From a virus, in the IMG/VR virus record IMGVR_UViG_3300007609_000080, positions 1-25,600 of that record: a DNA stretch of 25,600 nt. One strand, written 5' to 3'. Both the position numbers and the translations under genes were made by a program. Each line of letters starts with the position of its first letter. Within the stretch, counting starts at the first letter, position 1. This document shows positions 10,485 through 25,600 of this stretch, piece by piece. The notes beneath the pieces are model-generated. The model was not told where the DNA came from and made no database searches. It saw only the letters and a program-made list of their open reading frames with translations.

Positions 10485-11472
10485 AAGCAACTTGTTTCTG
10501 GTCTGGTTCAACTACTGGATCACTCCAGCCCCAGTCACCCACCATCCCTGCGGCATTGTAGTCCGTCACAACACCCTCAAAGAAGTTCTTGTGGCTGTCA
10601 CCACCAATGACCCAATCTAGCCATGGTAGTGGGTTCTCCTTAACCTTCCAGTTACCTTTGAGACCCAACTGGATAAGCCGCCGGTCTGCGATGTAACGAA
10701 TGTATTTCTTAACCTCTTCTGCCGTGAGACCCTCCACGACCCCCATCTCAAACGCCAAGTCAATAACTTTATCCTCAAGTTTAACTGCGTCACGAAACAT
10801 CTGATAGATATCTTTCTTAAACTCGTCAGTAACAATTCGTGGATGCTCTTCACAGAAAGTCCTAAATAGTTTTGTCATTCCTTCACAGTGCATAGACTCA
10901 TCACGCACTGACCATTCTACAATCTCACACATGCCTCGCATCTTACCGAAACGTTGGTAATTCAATAGCATTGCGAACGCACTAAACAGAGCCATGCCTT
11001 CATTCATTGCAGACCGTGCAACAGCCTTAGCAAGTCCTGCGTGGCTTGTTACGTCAATGTCCTGCATGAACTCAACTTTCTCTGCCATCTGCTGGTACTC
11101 TAGGAATGCACTGAACTCTTCTTCAGGTAAACCTAAAGTGTCATTCAGCAAAGCATAGCTACGCTGATGTACGAACTCACGATTCGCAAAGCTAGTCAGC
11201 ATGGCACGAACCTCGTTGTTCTTGAACTTAGGGATGTAGTACTCCAAGTAATTTGTACCGACAGCTACATCGGATTGCGTAAAGAGCCGCAAGATCTGTG
11301 TGATGTGATTCTTTTCTTCTGGGTTTAGTTTCCCATTCTTCCATTGAGCTACGTCTTCTTGTAGCTTGGCTTCCCACTCACCCCAGTGGACCTTCTCATG
11401 TGATACTGCATACTCAACAGCCCATGGGAATTTAAAAGGTTTGTACGTGGTATTCAATTCAAGTAGTGCCAT
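10483..11472 (-). CDS. nrdB: Ribonucleotide reductase class I beta subunit (radical-bearing)
   Basis: NrdB, 329 aa, holds the metal-tyrosyl radical cofactor that starts dNTP synthesis in the alpha subunit. All ligands fit the E. coli spacing: Asp68, Glu99 and His102 with radical Tyr106 (REFVHQRSY), Glu158 (NEGM), Glu192 and His195 (RDESMH). The start is ATG at 11472 (MALLELNTTYK), which has GAGGAG 10 bases upstream; a longer frame to 11490 exists but lies before this site. It overlaps the preceding small gene by 14 bases and is the last gene of the minus-strand operon, directly before the terminator. The intact Tyr argues against the radical-less subtypes. Confidence 0.96.
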   Translation of the reverse strand: MALLELNTTYKPFKFPWAVEYAVSHEKVHWGEWEAKLQEDVAQWKNGKLNPEEKNHITQILRLFTQSDVAVGTNYLEYYIPKFKNNEVRAMLTSFANREFVHQRSYALLNDTLGLPEEEFSAFLEYQQMAEKVEFMQDIDVTSHAGLAKAVARSAMNEGMALFSAFAMLLNYQRFGKMRGMCEIVEWSVRDESMHCEGMTKLFRTFCEEHPRIVTDEFKKDIYQMFRDAVKLEDKVIDLAFEMGVVEGLTAEEVKKYIRYIADRRLIQLGLKGNWKVKENPLPWLDWVIGGDSHKNFFEGVVTDYNAAGMVGDWGWSDPVVEPDQKQVA

Positions 11473-11671
11473 CTTGTGACTGCTCCTCATTTGTGGTGAT
11501 TATTGTCTTCCTTTTTAACTCTGCCCGTAACTGGTTGACCTCCTTGATCAGGGCAGTAATTACCTCCTCTGTCTCTACAAAAAACTGCGGAGGTGGTGTG
11601 TACTCTATACCACTCTGCGCAATTTCTCTATAGAACTTTAGTTTATCTAACACGCTGTCAGGATTTCTCAT
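11459..11671 (-). CDS. Small protein in the nrd operon, unknown
   Basis: A 70-aa protein with a helical, charged first part (DSVLDKLKFYREIAQSGIEY), a Pro-rich middle (TPPPQFF), a short coiled-coil-like helix (VITALIKEVNQLRAELKRK) and a polar Ser/Gln/Thr tail. It overlaps the 48-aa gene before it and nrdB after it by 14 bases each, so it is almost surely translated together with nrdB. The ribosome site is weak, as expected for a coupled gene. No family is recognised. Confidence 0.65.
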   Translation of the reverse strand: MRNPDSVLDKLKFYREIAQSGIEYTPPPQFFVETEEVITALIKEVNQLRAELKRKTIITTNEEQSQDGTT

Positions 11672-12253: not shown

Positions 12254-14011
12254 TTACCCCTGACACGAAAGGCATTCTTCGGCATCCTGAAGAGCCACCC
12301 GCTCCACTGCAAGGCCGACTTTATCTGCCTCGACTCCTGCATTAGTACGCAGGTAGTAAAGGCCCTTGAGTTCTCGCTTATAAGCTCGTAGATGTACGCT
12401 ATTGACGTACGAGGCAGGTGAACCTGACGGAAAGAACAGGTTGACTGACTGACCTTGACAGATGTAGTTCTGCCGATCTGCCGCATGATTAACGACTTCG
12501 CTTTGATCAATCTCAAACGCTGTTTTAAAAATTTCTTTGTCATCGGAACTGAGGAAGTCCAGATGCTGGACTGAGCCTTCATTCGATATGATGCTAGACC
12601 ACGTTTTATCATCGTTCTTTCCGTATCCTTCTAGTACAGACTCTAGGTGCCTATTCTTGATAAGATGAGCACCCGCACGAGTACGATGGGTATAAGCATT
12701 AGACTTAATAGGCTCAATACTAGCACTAGCATTACAGATAATGGAACTGTTAGCATTGGGTGCAATTGCAAGAAGGTGGGCATTACGCATGCCCGTACCT
12801 TCCATGTCAGGAGCCTCACCACGCTCTCGGGCGAGATCCATAGACTCAGCAACAGCTTCATCTTTAATCTCCTTGAAGATACGCATATTCAAGGATTGAG
12901 CACTGAACCAGTCCCATGCCATGCCTTTCTTCTGTAGCAGACCATGGAACCCCATGGCCCCTAGTCCTAACGAGCGTTCCCTTGAAGCACTGTATTTAGC
13001 TTTTCCAAGTTCTTCTGGTGCATGGTCGATAAAGTATTGGAGTACGTTGTCAAGGAATCTAACCAAGTCTGCAACCATTCCGCTTCCTGACCACTCGTCG
13101 TACTTTTCGAGGTTGATGCTGGAGAGGCAACAGACTGCTGTACGTGTTGTATCTGTCGGGAGGTGGATTTCATTGCAGAGGTTAGAGCCGTGAATGCGCA
13201 ATCCAAGTTCTCTTTGGTTTTCTGGTAAGCCTCTGTTGGCTGTGTCGATAAAGTTAAGGTAAGGACTGCCAGTTCTGAAGCGAGCTTCAAGTAAGTCTTC
13301 CCAAAGTCCTCTAGCTGAGACTGTGTCTCTAACAGATCCGTCATGAGGGTCTCTAAGTGTCCATTCTGTTCCATATTCTACCGCCTTCATAAAGTCATCG
13401 GTGATGTTCACGGCATTAAACAAGTTAAAGCACTTGCGATTAATGTCACCACCTGTGGGTACTTTAAAGTTTACGAACTCGACAATGTCAGGATGTGACA
13501 CATCGAGATATGCGGCGTACGATCCTTTACGGGTACGCCCTTGCTTCCATGCAGTCATCCCGCTATCAATGACTTTCATGAATGGGATTGGTCCGGGGGC
13601 TTTCTCTGAAATACCACGAACAGCAGACCAGTGTCCGCCTACGCCACCACCCTTTACAGAAAGCCAAGCCACTTCTTCTGGATGATCAATAAGAGAGTTG
13701 AGATTATCATCCACGTAAGAAAGGAAACAAGATATAGGTAATCCTGTTGCTTTGCTGTCAGGTGCTGGTGCGTTAGACAATACAGGGCTGGCAAACATAA
13801 ACCAGTTAAGACTAGCATAGTCATAGACCCTTTGTGCTAATGCGTAATCACCGTAGCAATAAGCCTCAGCCGCACGTGCATACGCTTCCTGCGGAGACTT
13901 TTCCCACGGAAGCATATAGTAGTCTTCCATGAGCTTGATTGCTTGCTCGGTTAAAAGGGCATCTCTTTCAAGATTGATTTTGATTCTTGTCTGGTTTTGT
14001 GGTTGGCTCAT
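12254..14011 (-). CDS. nrdA: Ribonucleotide reductase class I alpha subunit, short form
   Basis: The catalytic subunit reduces ribonucleotides to deoxyribonucleotides for phage DNA synthesis. Active-site residues are visible: Cys95 (PISCFLS), the SNLCNE motif with Asn277, Cys279 (thiyl radical) and Glu281, Cys294 (TAVCCLS), the radical-path Tyr pair in LYYLRT, and a C-terminal CLSC pair (580/583) for re-reduction by thioredoxin or glutaredoxin. At 585 aa it is much shorter than the usual roughly 750, mainly because the N-terminal ATP-cone is absent; the protein starts almost at the ERDALLTE core motif. The start is ATG 14011; a TTG two codons earlier lies closer to the ribosome site AGGGA. 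It overlaps the gene before by 44 bases. Confidence 0.95.
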   Translation of the reverse strand: MSQPQNQTRIKINLERDALLTEQAIKLMEDYYMLPWEKSPQEAYARAAEAYCYGDYALAQRVYDYASLNWFMFASPVLSNAPAPDSKATGLPISCFLSYVDDNLNSLIDHPEEVAWLSVKGGGVGGHWSAVRGISEKAPGPIPFMKVIDSGMTAWKQGRTRKGSYAAYLDVSHPDIVEFVNFKVPTGGDINRKCFNLFNAVNITDDFMKAVEYGTEWTLRDPHDGSVRDTVSARGLWEDLLEARFRTGSPYLNFIDTANRGLPENQRELGLRIHGSNLCNEIHLPTDTTRTAVCCLSSINLEKYDEWSGSGMVADLVRFLDNVLQYFIDHAPEELGKAKYSASRERSLGLGAMGFHGLLQKKGMAWDWFSAQSLNMRIFKEIKDEAVAESMDLARERGEAPDMEGTGMRNAHLLAIAPNANSSIICNASASIEPIKSNAYTHRTRAGAHLIKNRHLESVLEGYGKNDDKTWSSIISNEGSVQHLDFLSSDDKEIFKTAFEIDQSEVVNHAADRQNYICQGQSVNLFFPSGSPASYVNSVHLRAYKRELKGLYYLRTNAGVEADKVGLAVERVALQDAEECLSCQG

Positions 14012-14198
14012 ATTCAATTTGTTCCCTGTACATATTGACTATCTTATTTAGTATGTGCCGCAATTCTTTAGCGGCGTGTACTTCATGCTCACTTAGGTTG
14101 TCCATGTCGGATTCAATCATCGTAAGCATTTCGTCAGAGAAGCCCAATATTTTTTGTAGTTGGGTTTCTGGGACACGGAGATTAATCTTCTGTCTCAT
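13968..14198 (-). CDS. Small charged protein upstream of nrdA, unknown
   Basis: A 76-aa protein. I use ATG 14198 (MRQKINLRVPE), 5 bases after a GGGGTGA ribosome site; a GTG three codons earlier is also possible. It looks mostly helical, with an acidic middle (MIESDMDNLSEHEVHAAKEL) and a polar Lys/Asn/Gln tail. It overlaps the DUF3310 gene before it by 17 bases and the start of nrdA by 44 bases, so it is part of a coupled chain. No family is recognised. Confidence 0.65.
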   Translation of the reverse strand: MRQKINLRVPETQLQKILGFSDEMLTMIESDMDNLSEHEVHAAKELRHILNKIVNMYREQIEYEPTTKPDKNQNQS

Positions 14199-20449: not shown

Positions 20450-20863
20450 TTAACTGGCAACTAAGTATTGTACCAGATTCATGCCGACAGCAGTACCACT
20501 AATTGCACTGCCTATCAGAATGGCCCTGTCGTTCCATACGCCTCCTACATATACCCAGCCTGCACTACTGATTACGTAGGCAAGCTGGCCGTACATAACT
20601 AAGTTTGAATTGATCAAGAACACACCGGCTACGGCTAACACCATAGACACCCACTTCACGTACCAATCAATCGTACCTGTGGGTGTGGTTGGCTTGATCT
20701 CTTCGTACTGTATTTGAAGATCATCCAGTTCTTGCTGTAAGCGTTTCTTCTCAGTAGCCAATTCCATCGCAAGTTTCCCTGCCTTGGACATGGTGCTCCC
20801 TTTGAATTGCTCTTGTGTCTCTTCTGAGACTAACTCTTCAGATGTTGGTATCAAACCTGTCAT
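20450..20863 (-). CDS. Membrane protein with N-terminal coiled coil, unknown
   Basis: A 137-aa protein: an acidic start (1-24), a coiled-coil-like helix (about 28-57, ATEKKRLQQELDDLQIQYEE), then two or three membrane segments (about 67-84, 87-107 and 114-133). Two starts are possible. ATG 20863 has AGGA 8 bases upstream and a 26-base overlap with the gene before. ATG 20791 (MSKAGKLAM) has a stronger AAGGGAG site and would leave a 46-base gap. Both could be used. It lies directly before the helicase, so it may tether replication to the membrane or act in host takeover; no family is recognised. Confidence 0.75.
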   Translation of the reverse strand: MTGLIPTSEELVSEETQEQFKGSTMSKAGKLAMELATEKKRLQQELDDLQIQYEEIKPTTPTGTIDWYVKWVSMVLAVAGVFLINSNLVMYGQLAYVISSAGWVYVGGVWNDRAILIGSAISGTAVGMNLVQYLVAS

Positions 20864-21195: not shown

Positions 21196-21441
21196 TTAGT
21201 TGCCCAACTCGTAGTCATCTGAAGTGACGTATTCCGAACCACCCAACGGGTTGTAATTCTGCTTGCCCTCTTCCGATTCCTTGTGGAGTTTCAGTGCATG
21301 ATCTACGGTGATTCCTGTCACCGCAGAGACAATCGCCCACAGTATTCCGTTACGGCACATCGCATCAGATTCTTCTGGGGTCAAGTCTACAGTGTATGTT
21401 GCACCGCCATCTTCGTGTTCAATAATATCTCTTACTTCCAT
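21196..21441 (-). CDS. Unknown protein, 81 aa
   Basis: An acidic 81-aa protein with a beta-like start (ATYTVDLTPEESDAM), one hydrophobic helix (about 31-46, GILWAIVSAVTGITVD) and a polar, acidic tail rich in Gly, Glu, Asn and Tyr. The hydrophobic part is too short and mixed to be a sure membrane span. It begins 5 bases after the stop of the 189-aa gene, and its stop shares a base with an ATG (TAATG) of a 14-codon frame. No family is recognised. Confidence 0.65.
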   Translation of the reverse strand: MEVRDIIEHEDGGATYTVDLTPEESDAMCRNGILWAIVSAVTGITVDHALKLHKESEEGKQNYNPLGGSEYVTSDDYELGN

Positions 21442-21445
21442 TGTC

Positions 21446-22015
21446 TTAGTCCCATAGTGCTTCGTAATATTTACCGAACAGGCGGAACCCGTTGGATATC
21501 CGATCCTGTTCCTCCTTCATACGCTCATTCGTACTGCAACGCATAATAACGTCATCCTTGTTCGCTTTGCAATCAAATGCGTAGATCATCTCGTCCATGA
21601 CCCAATCCCAACGCTTGAAGAAGTTCTTGTCCGTTGATCCATCTTTCACGTACGCCTTGATCTCTTCATCGGTAGGCAGTAACTCTTCAGGCACATCTTC
21701 AAAGTCTACCTCAGGTGCACCGTGCTTCGTTTCCTTCAGTTGCTTCAGCATCGGCAGGATGATCGGTGCAAGAGTATGATCCATGCTCCATGTATCCCAT
21801 GGGTCAATGCGTATGTATTCGGGTTGTTTGTGACCCCTAAAGCGGTTTAATGTACCATCAATGACCCATTGGATAGCGTACTCTAGCTTCTCTAGGAAAC
21901 GCTCGTAGCGTGTGTATTCAGTCGGCCAGTTGATGTACCCATAACACTCAATCATGTAGTCCGTGAAGATACTACATCTGATTGGGTGCGGATATTTACC
22001 TATCTTGATTTTCAT
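21446..22015 (-). CDS. Conserved phage protein with DPWDTWSMDHTLAPI motif
   Basis: A 189-aa protein of a type common in phages but without a known function. It has the typical central motif DPWDTWSMDHTLAPIILPML (about 72-91), followed by a charged helix (KQLKETKHGAP), an acidic linker (VDFEDVPEELLPTDEE) and a second part with KRWDWVMDEMIYAF and many Asp, Glu and Lys. The many Trp, Tyr, Asp and His residues suggest a nucleic-acid or metal site but do not prove one. It stands in a chain of early minus-strand genes between small membrane proteins and the helicase. Confidence 0.85.
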   Translation of the reverse strand: MKIKIGKYPHPIRCSIFTDYMIECYGYINWPTEYTRYERFLEKLEYAIQWVIDGTLNRFRGHKQPEYIRIDPWDTWSMDHTLAPIILPMLKQLKETKHGAPEVDFEDVPEELLPTDEEIKAYVKDGSTDKNFFKRWDWVMDEMIYAFDCKANKDDVIMRCSTNERMKEEQDRISNGFRLFGKYYEALWD

Positions 22016-22028
22016 TATCTATGCCTCC

Positions 22029-22310
22029 CTAATAAAATCCCATTGCTCTACCGAACCCGAAGGCACTGATGCAAGCAAAGTATGTTGTGAGTATCATGAC
22101 CCACACTAATCCTCTACGCCAGTTTGCGTATGTCTGCACGACTACACCTACAAAAGATATAGGGTACACAATACGCATGTCTGGGTTACTGGCATTGATT
22201 GCTAGGTACATGCTCGCAATAACTGCAAGCACAAGCCCTATCAACTCACACCAGAAAGATATCCTGTCACTCTGGTAACTGTTTCTCCAGAACTCAGATA
22301 CACTAGGCAT
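22029..22310 (-). CDS. Small three-span membrane protein, unknown
   Basis: A 93-aa protein. I chose ATG 22310 (MPSVSEFWRN), 9 bases after GAGAAG; a longer frame from 22331 runs into the previous gene. After a short polar start come membrane segments of about 23-40 (ELIGLVLAVIASMYLAI), 47-62 (YPISFVGVVVQTY) and 67-90 (RGLVWVMILTTYFACISAFGF). The connecting loops carry Arg. It overlaps the preceding gene by 8 bases. Such small membrane proteins in early phage operons can alter the host envelope or stop superinfection, but no family is recognised. Confidence 0.75.
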   Translation of the reverse strand: MPSVSEFWRNSYQSDRISFWCELIGLVLAVIASMYLAINASNPDMRIVYPISFVGVVVQTYANWRRGLVWVMILTTYFACISAFGFGRAMGFY

Positions 22311-22542
22311 CTGTGTACTTCTCAATGGCATCTTCTAAGTCGTTGCACCATATACACGCAGGTGTAGGCTTGTTGGGTGCAGGCTTCAGTTGATCTACAA
22401 GTGTACGCCACCTGTCGTACGCCTCGTGGTCATCTTCCATGTTAGCTTCATTAGATAGGAACAGTGCCCATACGTAAGCACACTCCCCAGTCAATCCAAT
22501 ACTGTATCCATTCGGACGTTCTACATACGGTAGTTTACTCAT
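22303..22542 (-). CDS. Unknown small protein with CxxC, 79 aa
   Basis: A 79-aa protein starting at ATG 22542 (MSKLPYVERPN), which overlaps the upstream HTH gene by 4 bases (ATGA) and has GGGGGA about 8 bases before it. Features: TGECAYVWALFLS near the middle, a charged helix (NMEDDHEAYDRWRTLVDQL), a Pro-rich stretch and CIWCNDLEDAIEKY at the end. The C-x-x-C could bind a metal together with the earlier Cys, but it is a single pair. No family is recognised. Confidence 0.7.
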   Translation of the reverse strand: MSKLPYVERPNGYSIGLTGECAYVWALFLSNEANMEDDHEAYDRWRTLVDQLKPAPNKPTPACIWCNDLEDAIEKYTDA

Positions 22543-22853
22543 GCCGCTTTCCCCCATGGCTTAGTGATTGTCCAGTGGCCGAAAGGTACAGACCCATACC
22601 ACTCTTTTTCAAATAATTTCTGAGGTCTGCCCGGAGTAAACCTACCAGTCCTAGGTTGTAACCCCAGCCTGTCTCTGTACTTGGCCACATGTCTCTGTAC
22701 AGATCTTTTAGTTACTCCTAGCTCTTTTCCTATTTGCTGTGCGGGTAAATCCTGTTCCCACAACTCAATCAGCCTTTTCTCCCGCTCGTGATTCCATAAC
22801 TTTTTTGTATCCCGATCTGCTCTGTCTGGGTCAGACCAATATCCATCACTCAT
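22539..22853 (-). CDS. HTH DNA-binding protein, possibly GcrA-like
   Basis: A 104-aa protein with a helix-turn-helix: NHEREKRLIELWEQDLPAQQ, then IGKELGVTKRSVQRHVAKYR (about 41-60), then LGLQPRTGRFTPGRP. The layout W-x-L-x-ELW-x-x-L-x-A-x-QI-x-ELG-VT-x-x-x-V resembles GcrA, the alphaproteobacterial cell-cycle regulator that acts with sigma-70 at CcrM-methylated GANTC sites, though generic HTH proteins also look like this. The basic end after the HTH would hold DNA. It overlaps both neighbours by 4 bases. It may switch transcription between early and replication genes; this is inference. Confidence 0.7.
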   Translation of the reverse strand: MSDGYWSDPDRADRDTKKLWNHEREKRLIELWEQDLPAQQIGKELGVTKRSVQRHVAKYRDRLGLQPRTGRFTPGRPQKLFEKEWYGSVPFGHWTITKPWGKAA

Positions 22854-23496: not shown

Positions 23497-24291
23497 TCAC
23501 TTAGTGATTAATGACTTGACGCATTCTGGAGTAAAATACTTCAAGTCATCAGTTAAGAATAGTATCTCAGTTGATACGTGTGCGTCAAGCATTTTTTTCA
23601 TTTGAATTGATTTTTTTGACGCATCAGGGTCTAGAGCAACAATCACCTTACTGAATGCACGTAACTGGTACACATGCCCTGCACTTAAGGTTGTACCCAA
23701 TAAGGCAACCCCTGTGTATCCTGCGGCATACACTGTACAAGCACTCGCACAATCTTCTACTACAACGGCTGTGCCTTGCTTTGGGCCACAGATAAACATG
23801 AGATCTTTCCTTCTGTCGTAACGTTTCCACTTGGGTACGACACCTTTACGCAATGCTCTACCTACAGCACCAATGACATTCTTGTTGTCATCTGTGATTA
23901 AGAATACACATCTGTTTTCTTTGATGTCGTACAAGACATAAGCGTACGTATCATCAATGGCCGGTTGAACATGCATGTCTTCAATGTAGGACACACAGGT
24001 ATGATTGGTGTCTACTAGGGTCAGTGTATCAGGAATTACAAAGGAAGGGGGCACATCTTCGTTTTGCTTACGACACGAAGGGGATGCTAGACTCTCACGA
24101 ATAGAGGCAAGGCTACGGCGTACCCCGGCATTACCTCGTGCACGACACGATGCCTTATAGCAGTTATACAATACTTGACCACCTTGACGTGTGACTGTAA
24201 ATGTCTTGTACCCTCCACACACAGGACAGGATACACGTTTGGTTTCACTGTCCCGGATGTCGAGTCCTGAAATGAATTCTTTTATCTCCAT
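23497..24291 (-). CDS. DNA primase (T7-type: zinc ribbon plus TOPRIM)
   Basis: A 264-aa stand-alone primase. It has an N-terminal zinc ribbon (Cys22, Cys25, Cys44, Cys49: CPVCGG and NCYKASC), a linker, and a TOPRIM core with Glu179 (VVVEDCASA) and Asp221/Asp223 (VIVALDPDA). It makes RNA primers for lagging-strand synthesis together with the separate helicase gene at 19194. The start is ATG 24291 (MEIKEFISGLD); the much longer frame to 24459 begins with 56 residues unlike a primase that would cover the promoter region, so I reject it. A weak GAAGAGAG lies about 10 bases upstream. It faces the early plus-strand genes across an AT-rich spacer and ends before a strong terminator. Confidence 0.92.
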   Translation of the reverse strand: MEIKEFISGLDIRDSETKRVSCPVCGGYKTFTVTRQGGQVLYNCYKASCRARGNAGVRRSLASIRESLASPSCRKQNEDVPPSFVIPDTLTLVDTNHTCVSYIEDMHVQPAIDDTYAYVLYDIKENRCVFLITDDNKNVIGAVGRALRKGVVPKWKRYDRRKDLMFICGPKQGTAVVVEDCASACTVYAAGYTGVALLGTTLSAGHVYQLRAFSKVIVALDPDASKKSIQMKKMLDAHVSTEILFLTDDLKYFTPECVKSLITK

Positions 24292-24449
24292 GGTGTTGAC
24301 ACGCTCTCTTCTTTCGTTTAACGTCCTCAGTACAATACCCCCTGTTAAGGGAAAACACAAACATAAATAATATATACTAAGGTCTAATATATAATCTTGT
24401 ACGCAAAGACTATGATCTACAAACGAACTCAAGCAAGGAGATAACACAA
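24292..24449. promoter_or_regulatory. Divergent AT-rich control region
   Basis: A 158-base spacer between the primase (minus) and the first early gene (plus), the largest intergenic region. The core (about 24361-24395) is nearly pure AT and includes a perfect TATAAT at 24390-24395 (plus strand), but no clear TTGACA at 17 bases. Near-palindromic ATAATATATA and TAATATATAAT tracts could serve either direction. A ribosome site AAGGAG (24436-24441) precedes the plus gene. Main early promoters are expected here; a replication origin is also possible. Confidence 0.55.
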
Positions 24450-24719
24450 ATGCAATCAACTAAGGACATGATGATTACACTCAGAGAAACATTTGATGTA
24501 GTCTACAAATACAATCATTCTATGAATGAACATGAATTGCGTACATCAATTAATGCTTTACGCAATCTGTACTATATGTTGTACGAAGACTATACATTTG
24601 CTGAAGCCATTGACAACATGGCTAAAGTATACGATGAACACAAAGAAGCAGAAGAAGTAGCTCGTACCGAATCTGCATTATGGTTTGAACAAGGAGAGAA
24701 GTGCTATGAAATTGATTGA
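24450..24719 (+). CDS. First early gene, unknown acidic protein
   Basis: An 89-aa, mainly helical, acidic protein: QSTKDMMITLRETFDVVYKY, then NALRNLYYMLYEDYTFAEAI and a Glu-rich end (EHKEAEEVARTE). The strong AAGGAG site 8 bases before ATG 24450 and the place right after the divergent promoter region mark it as an early gene. It overlaps the next gene by 14 bases. No family is recognised; small acidic early proteins often bind and block host proteins. Confidence 0.8.
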   Translation: MQSTKDMMITLRETFDVVYKYNHSMNEHELRTSINALRNLYYMLYEDYTFAEAIDNMAKVYDEHKEAEEVARTESALWFEQGEKCYEID

Positions 24720-24981
24720 TAATGTAAATACATACGATAGTCAAACTCTATCGTTAGACACATTAGACTTACAACGTAATGTTGCGTACATGATTAACCA
24801 TCAAGAAGGTATGTCGTATGGTTCAGAGTTTGTACCTGAGCAACTCACAATGATTGCGGTACCACAAGGTGCTACACGTACTGAGATGTTATCCGCATTA
24901 TACCATTTTATGATTGGCATGGGGTATCAGTTTGAGTACGATGAGTACATTGATATTGTAAGACATGGAGATGATGACTGA
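24706..24981 (+). CDS. Early gene 2, unknown
   Basis: A 91-aa protein that starts at ATG 24706 (MKLIDNVNTYDSQT); AAGGAG lies 9 bases upstream inside the end of the first early gene, and a TTG seven codons earlier is less likely. It has a Leu/Asp/Ser-rich start, a middle with Gly, Pro and Val (GSEFVPEQLTMIAVPQGAT) and a helix (EMLSALYHFMIGMGYQF), ending in acidic DDD. It shares one base with the next start (TGATG). No family is recognised. Confidence 0.8.
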   Translation: MKLIDNVNTYDSQTLSLDTLDLQRNVAYMINHQEGMSYGSEFVPEQLTMIAVPQGATRTEMLSALYHFMIGMGYQFEYDEYIDIVRHGDDD

Positions 24982-25211
24982 TGAGACACATTGATTCGTA
25001 CACAATACTGCGTGAGTTATACGCTCGTGCATCAGATTACAAGTATGATCCTGAACCACAGTATGATGACTTAATGTACACACTGCACTCAGAAGGATTA
25101 CTGAGTGAGTTGATTCAGATTACAGCACAGTGTAGTGCAGTACAGTCACGTGCTATACAGGATCGTGTACAGGCATACAACACAGAGGATGAACAAAATG
25201 AATGCGCATGA
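24981..25211 (+). CDS. Early gene 3, unknown
   Basis: A 76-aa, mainly helical protein (IDSYTILRELYARASDYKYD, then LSELIQITAQCSAVQSRAIQ) with an acidic end (NTEDEQNECA) and two Cys. It begins with a one-base overlap with the gene before and ends with a 14-base overlap with the gene after, so it is translated as part of a chain. No own ribosome site is obvious. No family is recognised. Confidence 0.75.
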   Translation: MRHIDSYTILRELYARASDYKYDPEPQYDDLMYTLHSEGLLSELIQITAQCSAVQSRAIQDRVQAYNTEDEQNECA

Positions 25212-25527
25212 GATACTAGAAGAGTTCAGAGAGAAACACAGGATGTTCTTACAGGATCGTATTGATAACCAATATACCCCTGAGGTTGTCACAGATGGCT
25301 CACATCCGAATGACCCAGACGCAGAGTACGTTACCATTACAGATGAAGAGAAATGGAATACAGCAGAGTATATCGTGGATACGATTGATGACGTAGATAT
25401 TTTGAAAGACATGCTGTGTAGTTCTCTGTATGAGCAGTTCCGTGATCTTGATCCAATGGATGCTACCCTTGAAGCATCACTGATTGATTCATTCGTGGCT
25501 ATGTACCACAAAAGGGATCAGGTCTAA
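25198..25527 (+). CDS. Early gene 4, unknown acidic protein
   Basis: A 109-aa, strongly acidic protein. I use ATG 25198 (MNAHEILEEFREKHR) with AGAGGA 8 bases before it; the frame extends 21 codons upstream through the previous gene, which I do not accept. Features: an N-terminal charged helix, a Pro/Asp-rich loop (TDGSHPNDPDAEYV), then helices with many Asp and Glu (TIDDVDILKDML, FRDLDPMDATLEA). Dense negative charge can mimic DNA, as in some anti-restriction proteins, but this is only a hint. No family is recognised. Confidence 0.75.
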   Translation: MNAHEILEEFREKHRMFLQDRIDNQYTPEVVTDGSHPNDPDAEYVTITDEEKWNTAEYIVDTIDDVDILKDMLCSSLYEQFRDLDPMDATLEASLIDSFVAMYHKRDQV

Positions 25528-25537
25528 AGTATAAAAC

Positions 25538-25600
25538 ATGAAGGCGTCACGTCTCGGTTATAGGGCTTCTATCATTTTGAGAAATCATTTAAGCGACACG
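25538..25600 (+). CDS. Possible start of a further early gene (cut by the window edge)
   Basis: From ATG 25538 (MKASRLGYRASI) the frame stays open for 21 codons to the window edge. There is no clear ribosome site just upstream, and the peptide is basic, unlike the acidic genes before it. It may be a real gene or chance. Confidence 0.35.
   Translation, partial: MKASRLGYRASIILRNHLSDT

Follow-up and report, generated by a model that had tools for sequence, protein, structure and literature searches.

A cluster of small genes for acidic proteins, divergent from the primase in a marine phage of the HMO-2011 type, and the unnamed protein family of one of them

Four short, overlapping genes (o1–o4) that face away from the primase of a marine virus record look like a real operon. 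We consider it an operon of an ordinary sort, whose point of interest is the unnamed protein family to which o3 belongs. The explanation that we favor, at about even confidence, is that o1–o4 represent a reduced version of an early accessory operon found in marine phages of the HMO-2011 type, encoding small acidic proteins that probably bind host or replication proteins. This explanation builds on the observed genes, their homology, order, and selection, the terminators predicted in relatives, and the placement of o3 and its sister genes in one HMO-2011-like contig (L125); timing, promoter use, and protein targets are what we infer.

The cluster and the phage that carries it

The window—the whole stretch of DNA analyzed—is the entire virus record of 25,600 bases. 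A single module holds the core genes for DNA polymerase, primase, and a DnaB-like helicase, one of the features by which HMO-2011-type phages are recognized, and the closest isolates by polymerase and primase together are of that type (for example, CRP-235, CRP-3, and HMO-2011). Identity to these isolates, the best relatives found for the polymerase, is 38–52% for that protein and 30–40% for the primase. The Pfam domains of the window polymerase run in the order exonuclease (91–188), DnaJ_CXXCXGXG (325–366), and DNA_pol_A (385–716), with the first two scoring under their Pfam cut-offs (23.2 bits against 23.6, and 22.4 against 32.7). This order fits the HMO-2011 type because it matches the exonuclease/DnaJ-like/polymerase order given as typical of such phages in a published account (PMC9038755). 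On these sequence grounds, we take the carrier of o1–o4 to be a marine HMO-2011-type phage. One difference concerns ribonucleotide reductase: HMO-2011 and CRP-235 have one annotated gene, while the window has separate NrdA-like large and NrdB-like small subunits on the minus strand (10486–11490 and 12257–14017). The tetranucleotide TCGA is under-represented across the window (34 copies, where a maximal-order Markov count predicts 58).

The replication genes run leftward from the primase (23497–24291, minus strand; 264 aa; phrog_47, E = 1.8e-15), the divergent neighbor of the cluster, and meet the rightward genes, an endolysin gene and large genes most of which match no family, near 10.4 kb. 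The genes for TerL, portal, and major head protein were found in a relative, G001; the 25.6-kb record ends short of the core portal, capsid, TerS, and TerL genes. No phage RNA polymerase was seen among the window genes scanned, and a search for T7-type RNA polymerase gave no matches anywhere, controls included, and is thus uninformative.

The original prediction described four short, unrecognized, mostly acidic genes in a row opposite the primase, and each part of that description is borne out; its interpretation of the cluster is supported in part. Beyond a 158-bp divergent intergenic region (24292–24449; 64% A+T), which we aligned with those of relatives, the plus strand carries o1 (24450–24719; 89 aa), o2 (24706–24981; 91 aa), o3 (24981–25211; 76 aa), and o4 (25198–25527; 109 aa), with o2 and o4 starting at internal ATGs. 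Translational coupling is plausible because the reading frames overlap, by 14 nt between o1 and o2, by one base (TGATG) between o2 and o3, and by 14 nt between o3 and o4. A purine-rich, Shine-Dalgarno-like stretch is visible by eye before each start. Searches of o1–o4 against PHROGs and Pfam returned nothing beyond chance (best E = 0.012), no relative of o2 appeared in the sequences searched, leaving it an acidic orphan, and no literature evidently about the cluster was found, judging by titles. All four products are acidic, with pI values of 4.61, 4.22, 4.39, and 4.19 and net charges of −10, −11, −8, and −18 for o1 to o4, respectively. A charge per residue of −0.10 or lower is reached by 4/4 cluster genes and by 1/14 of the other window genes of up to 200 aa (Fisher ~0.0016, calculated by hand with a threshold picked after the data were seen).

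Relatives, a longer operon, and its limits

Taking the best 80 of 594 loci from a primase scan as relatives, we found the closest to be 11 loci at 56–65% identity (L002–L012) and a partial one, L013. L005, L009, and L139, the last of which was found through a search with o1, have homologues of o1, o3, and o4 that keep the window's gene order and, likewise, the strand opposite to that of the primase. Identity between the window proteins and these homologues is low (24–35%), with Smith–Waterman z-scores of 3.6–7.1 for o1, 13.6–14.4 for o3, and 6.7–8.8 for o4. At most 7 of 2000 shuffles reached the score of a true pair; the top score between non-corresponding cluster genes was 43 (o1 against the L139 o4), compared with 46 for the weakest true pair (o1 against the L139 o1). 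Within L005, L009, and L139, dN/dS was 0.11–0.29 where unsaturated, values that indicate purifying selection on o1, o3, and o4 in these relatives; pairs involving the window were mostly saturated, the two that could be computed giving 0.54 and 0.34. Because confirmation uses the first sequence, scans for o4 and o1 that started from the window found no relative. When the same three sequences were led by that of L005, o4 was recovered in two contigs and o1 in three, the contig of L139 being the only new one. A tblastn search of 50,697 phage records with o1 and o4 gave weak matches only, and no homologues of o1, o3, or o4 were found in the HMO-2011-type isolates.

In L005, L009, and L139, the operon is longer: ahead of o1 it has a gene for a C5-cytosine methyltransferase and four or more additional small genes. 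The order is g77, g69, one or more small genes, a gene of ~160 aa, and then the methyltransferase (PF00145; E = 3.3e-48 in L005), which directly abuts o1; o1 and o3 are separated by two further genes, g98 and g67. Upstream of the primase, g77 or g69 is present in 11/11 close relatives with sequence there (L002–L012), and g98 recurs in that position in the isolates CRP-207 and CRP-13. The window cluster, in turn, begins at o1, with the methyltransferase block missing beside the primase, and none of the ten genes of the long form that we sought in the window gave a convincing match (best E = 0.048). Separately, replication-side small genes of the window (20453–20863, 21449–22015, and 22306–22557, minus strand) recur in the o3-carrying marine contigs L096 and L085, so that several small genes seem to travel between lineages.

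A predicted intrinsic terminator follows o4 in all three relatives that reach that point: in L131, the contig of L005 (15160–15144, 35 nt past o4), in L009 (1368–1352, 49 nt past), and in L139 (7569–7586, 83 nt past). A second is predicted after a GP88-like gene (a PF17338 match below its cut-off) and before the packaging genes in L131 and L139 (2/2). Counts of terminator-like sites against shuffle expectation were 4 versus 2.6 in L131, 5 versus 3.2 in L009, and 9 versus 3.4 in L139, and in weighing these predictions we rely on the shared position and the near-identical GC stem rather than on overall counts. None was seen in the 73 bases of the window that follow o4. The arrangement in relatives suggests a self-contained operon that includes a DNA methyltransferase gene and has a predicted terminator of its own. 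In L131, a long, ORF-poor gap (12336–13894) separates the small-gene operons from the packaging genes; it contains TTGCGTACAAGACT twice as well as a predicted terminator and may be involved in late control.

These limits bear on whether o1–o4 could instead be the head of a late arm, encoding small assembly or lysis helpers co-transcribed with structural genes. The cluster strand in G001 does run on, past two terminators, to the genes for TerL, portal, and major head protein, and the structural arms of HMO-2011 and CRP-235 likewise begin with small hypothetical genes. Still, the predicted terminators after o4 and before the packaging genes, the fact that o3 homologues of L125 and of another lineage share the strand of the replication genes, and the lack of any PHROG match between o1–o4 and structural proteins together make this explanation improbable.

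The divergent gap and the case for early expression

The original prediction had placed the cluster just after the strongest promoter candidate. The candidate meant was probably TTGACA-17-TAACGT at 24296, which a home-made sigma70 score ranks in the top 1.2% of 646 chunks; against it, a scan for consensus promoters listed none within the 158-bp gap, and the TTGACA that would serve as its −35 element is simply the start region of the primase gene read on the complementary strand. A different promoter-like element, CTAAGGTCTAATATATAAT, faces the cluster (24377–24395, plus strand), with TATAAT at 24390–24395, 54 nt before o1. At the same place, relatives have a palindrome, AGTCTAATAGACT, followed by AAAG and likewise facing the cluster, of which the window element may be a half-site. 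The 16-base core of the palindrome is exact in 8/12 close relatives (L004–L010 and L139, out of L002–L012 plus L139), and L004, L005, and L139 have a TATA-like box after it, whereas L006 and L009 lack one. We regard the window element as a putative promoter on this evidence.

Part of the gap sequence recurs at the far end of the cluster. The sequence AGGTCTAANNTATAA has two exact matches in the window, before o1 (24380–24394) and across the end of o4 (25520–25534, plus strand), the second lying 3 nt ahead of an ATG at 25538 whose frame is open to the window end. Copies with up to three mismatches are not enriched (11 against 7.4), and it is the two exact copies that stand out. Another repeated word, TTGCGTAC, was rejected as a signal: its nine copies compare with 0.74 expected from dinucleotide shuffles, but the expectation rises to ~7.5 when longer words are allowed for. 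Finally, AGTCTAATAGACTAAAG is found exactly in six 38–39-kb IMG/VR records (L147, L152, L154, and L156–L158).

Gene placement elsewhere bears on timing, with L125 the most telling case. This contig, whose polymerase is 63% identical to that of HMO-2011, carries homologues of g77, o3, g159, and g69 on the same strand as the primase, and the genes for integrase, primase, helicase, and polymerase come after them; homologues of o1 and o4 were not seen in this contig. Short hypothetical genes also lie by the primase in the early regions of HMO-2011, CRP-1, CRP-207, CRP-345, CRP-603, and HTVC033P, and those of CRP-207 (a methylase near the primase) and CRP-603 (a C5-methyltransferase) include a DNA methyltransferase, as does the operon of the window's relatives. 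The window differs from the isolates in orientation: in the 8 of 11 HMO-2011-type isolates that were inspected, the genes immediately preceding the primase share its strand, whereas those of the window are divergent. Taken with L125, the isolate layouts suggest that this is an early-region gene set that, in the window clade, crossed to the other side of the divergent promoter.

Under the early accessory operon explanation, host RNA polymerase would probably read o1–o4 from the divergent gap, with the replication operon read the opposite way, and, early in infection, the small acidic products would probably act by binding proteins of the host or of the replication machinery. Their role may be host adjustment or counter-defense, together with the DNA methyltransferase in the full-length form, the presence of which hints at counter-defense. 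This explanation agrees with the occurrence of o3 in the replication arm of another lineage and among small genes of the Methylophilales phage Melnitz. Several observations point the other way—the cluster strand leads to head genes in G001, L125 is without o1 and o4, and the methyltransferase block is missing by the window primase, where 11/11 close relatives with upstream sequence have g77 or g69.

The o3 family and possible functions of the cluster proteins

The most widespread member of the cluster is o3. An alignment of 28 sequences shows invariant residues D23, P24, E25, P26, and D29, within a motif that reads DPEPQYD in o3 (25047–25067, plus strand), and one scan recovered the family in 45 contigs; a scan of genome contigs gave no match. 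The members tested against PHROG, Pfam, and NCBIfam matched no family. A tblastn search of the same 50,697 records with o3 itself gave weak matches, including Melnitz (E = 0.1) and a Lactobacillus phage (E = 0.2). The former was strengthened by searching all phage records with the L096 member, which matched a hypothetical protein of the cultured, T4-like Melnitz phages (Kyanoviridae; 141 kb) at 46% over 57 residues (E = 1e-8), and by the o3 profile (E = 6.7e-10). The Melnitz protein differs from o3 in its longer N-terminus, its motif (DEEPRSD), and its very different phage and neighborhood; in Melnitz-2 (L130, 3842–4174), the C-terminal half of the hypothetical protein is the o3 relative. As delimited by these matches, o3 belongs to an unnamed family that occurs in dozens of contigs of marine phages and spans three or more phage lineages, of which Melnitz is in culture.

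Genomic context raises the possibility that o3, and perhaps also o4, assists replication as a small helical adaptor that binds the single-stranded DNA-binding protein (SSB) or primase-helicase, for example in helicase loading. A gene for a gp2.5-like SSB (phrog_112) starts 0–3 nt from the o3 end in 34/45 distinct contigs; a primase-helicase gene comes next in 32 of these, while the remaining two contigs end before that point. In 3 more contigs o3 lies directly, or one gene, ahead of the primase-helicase. The 45 contigs are not independent cases, however, since many of them, also among those with the SSB link, are close kin. Two of the remainder have the window-type operon, one is cut, and five are without these markers downstream of o3; three of the five were inspected, namely the HMO-2011-like L125, L096, where a ParB-like gene immediately precedes o3, and L090, where a PhoH-like gene lies ~2.6 kb further on. 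Against such a role, the SSB profile has no match in the window, L005, L009, or L139, o3 of the window clade and the primase lie on opposite sides of the promoter, and the neighbors in Melnitz are small hypothetical genes and a PKHD hydroxylase. Moreover, position cannot fix the function of o3, because T7 gp2, an inhibitor of host RNA polymerase, also lies just before gp2.5. We consider a replication accessory rather unlikely. A proposed assignment of the L085 and L099 phages as SIO1-like was dropped; the L091 helicase is at best 37% identical to those of pelagiphage and roseophage isolates.

The T7 arrangement also invites comparison with gene 2 itself, as o3 of the other lineage stands immediately before the gp2.5-like gene and encodes ~60 aa. 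The proteins have no detectable similarity, o3 is predicted to be all-helical while Gp2 is not, and neither a family match among the members scanned nor a supportive PDB match links them. An AlphaFold model of o3 from the 28 sequences comprises three helices (mean pLDDT 89.7), for which Foldseek found no match below E = 1. In VIA-align, the helical half of the Thoeris anti-defense protein Tad1 matched the model in three chains (Z 5.8, rmsd 2.0–2.2 over 53–56 residues) and less closely in a fourth (Z 5.3, rmsd 4.2), but Tad1 is tied with unrelated helical proteins at Z 5.8–5.9, a range that the tool calls common, and only Tad1 residues from ~50 on are covered. No NCBIfam or PDB sequence match relates o3 to Tad1, and PDB sequence profiles gave chance-level hits for o3 and o4. 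The best profile match of o1, a designed TPR protein (E = 0.016), was judged a helical-repeat resemblance and set aside.

The acidity of the cluster, and of o4 in particular, recalls small acidic DNA mimics such as Ocr and ArdA, and o4 or others might accordingly block restriction or another DNA-binding host protein. With a net charge of −18 over 109 aa, o4 carries −0.165 per residue, its homologues are also acidic (−0.141, −0.167, and −0.144), and a methyltransferase shares the operon of the relatives. Ocr, though, has a higher charge per residue than o4; another small window gene (21199–21441) is similarly charged at −0.148; and charge varies from 0 to −0.147 within the o3 family. No PHROG, Pfam, or PDB sequence match connects o4 to a known mimic, and structure prediction gave an o4 model too unreliable (mean pLDDT 57) for fold comparison and no close structural match for o3. 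Mimicry by o4, as suggested by its charge, seems to us quite improbable.

The early accessory operon remains our preferred explanation. A broader reading, which we consider unlikely, is that o3 founds a widespread marine family, in podovirus-like and T4-like phages, that would switch host machinery early in infection, and that o1–o4 with the methyltransferase would form a mobile counter-defense cassette able to sit on either side of the promoter. The o3 family itself offers a compact, confidently modeled target (AlphaFold pLDDT 90) that is also present in a cultured phage, Melnitz.
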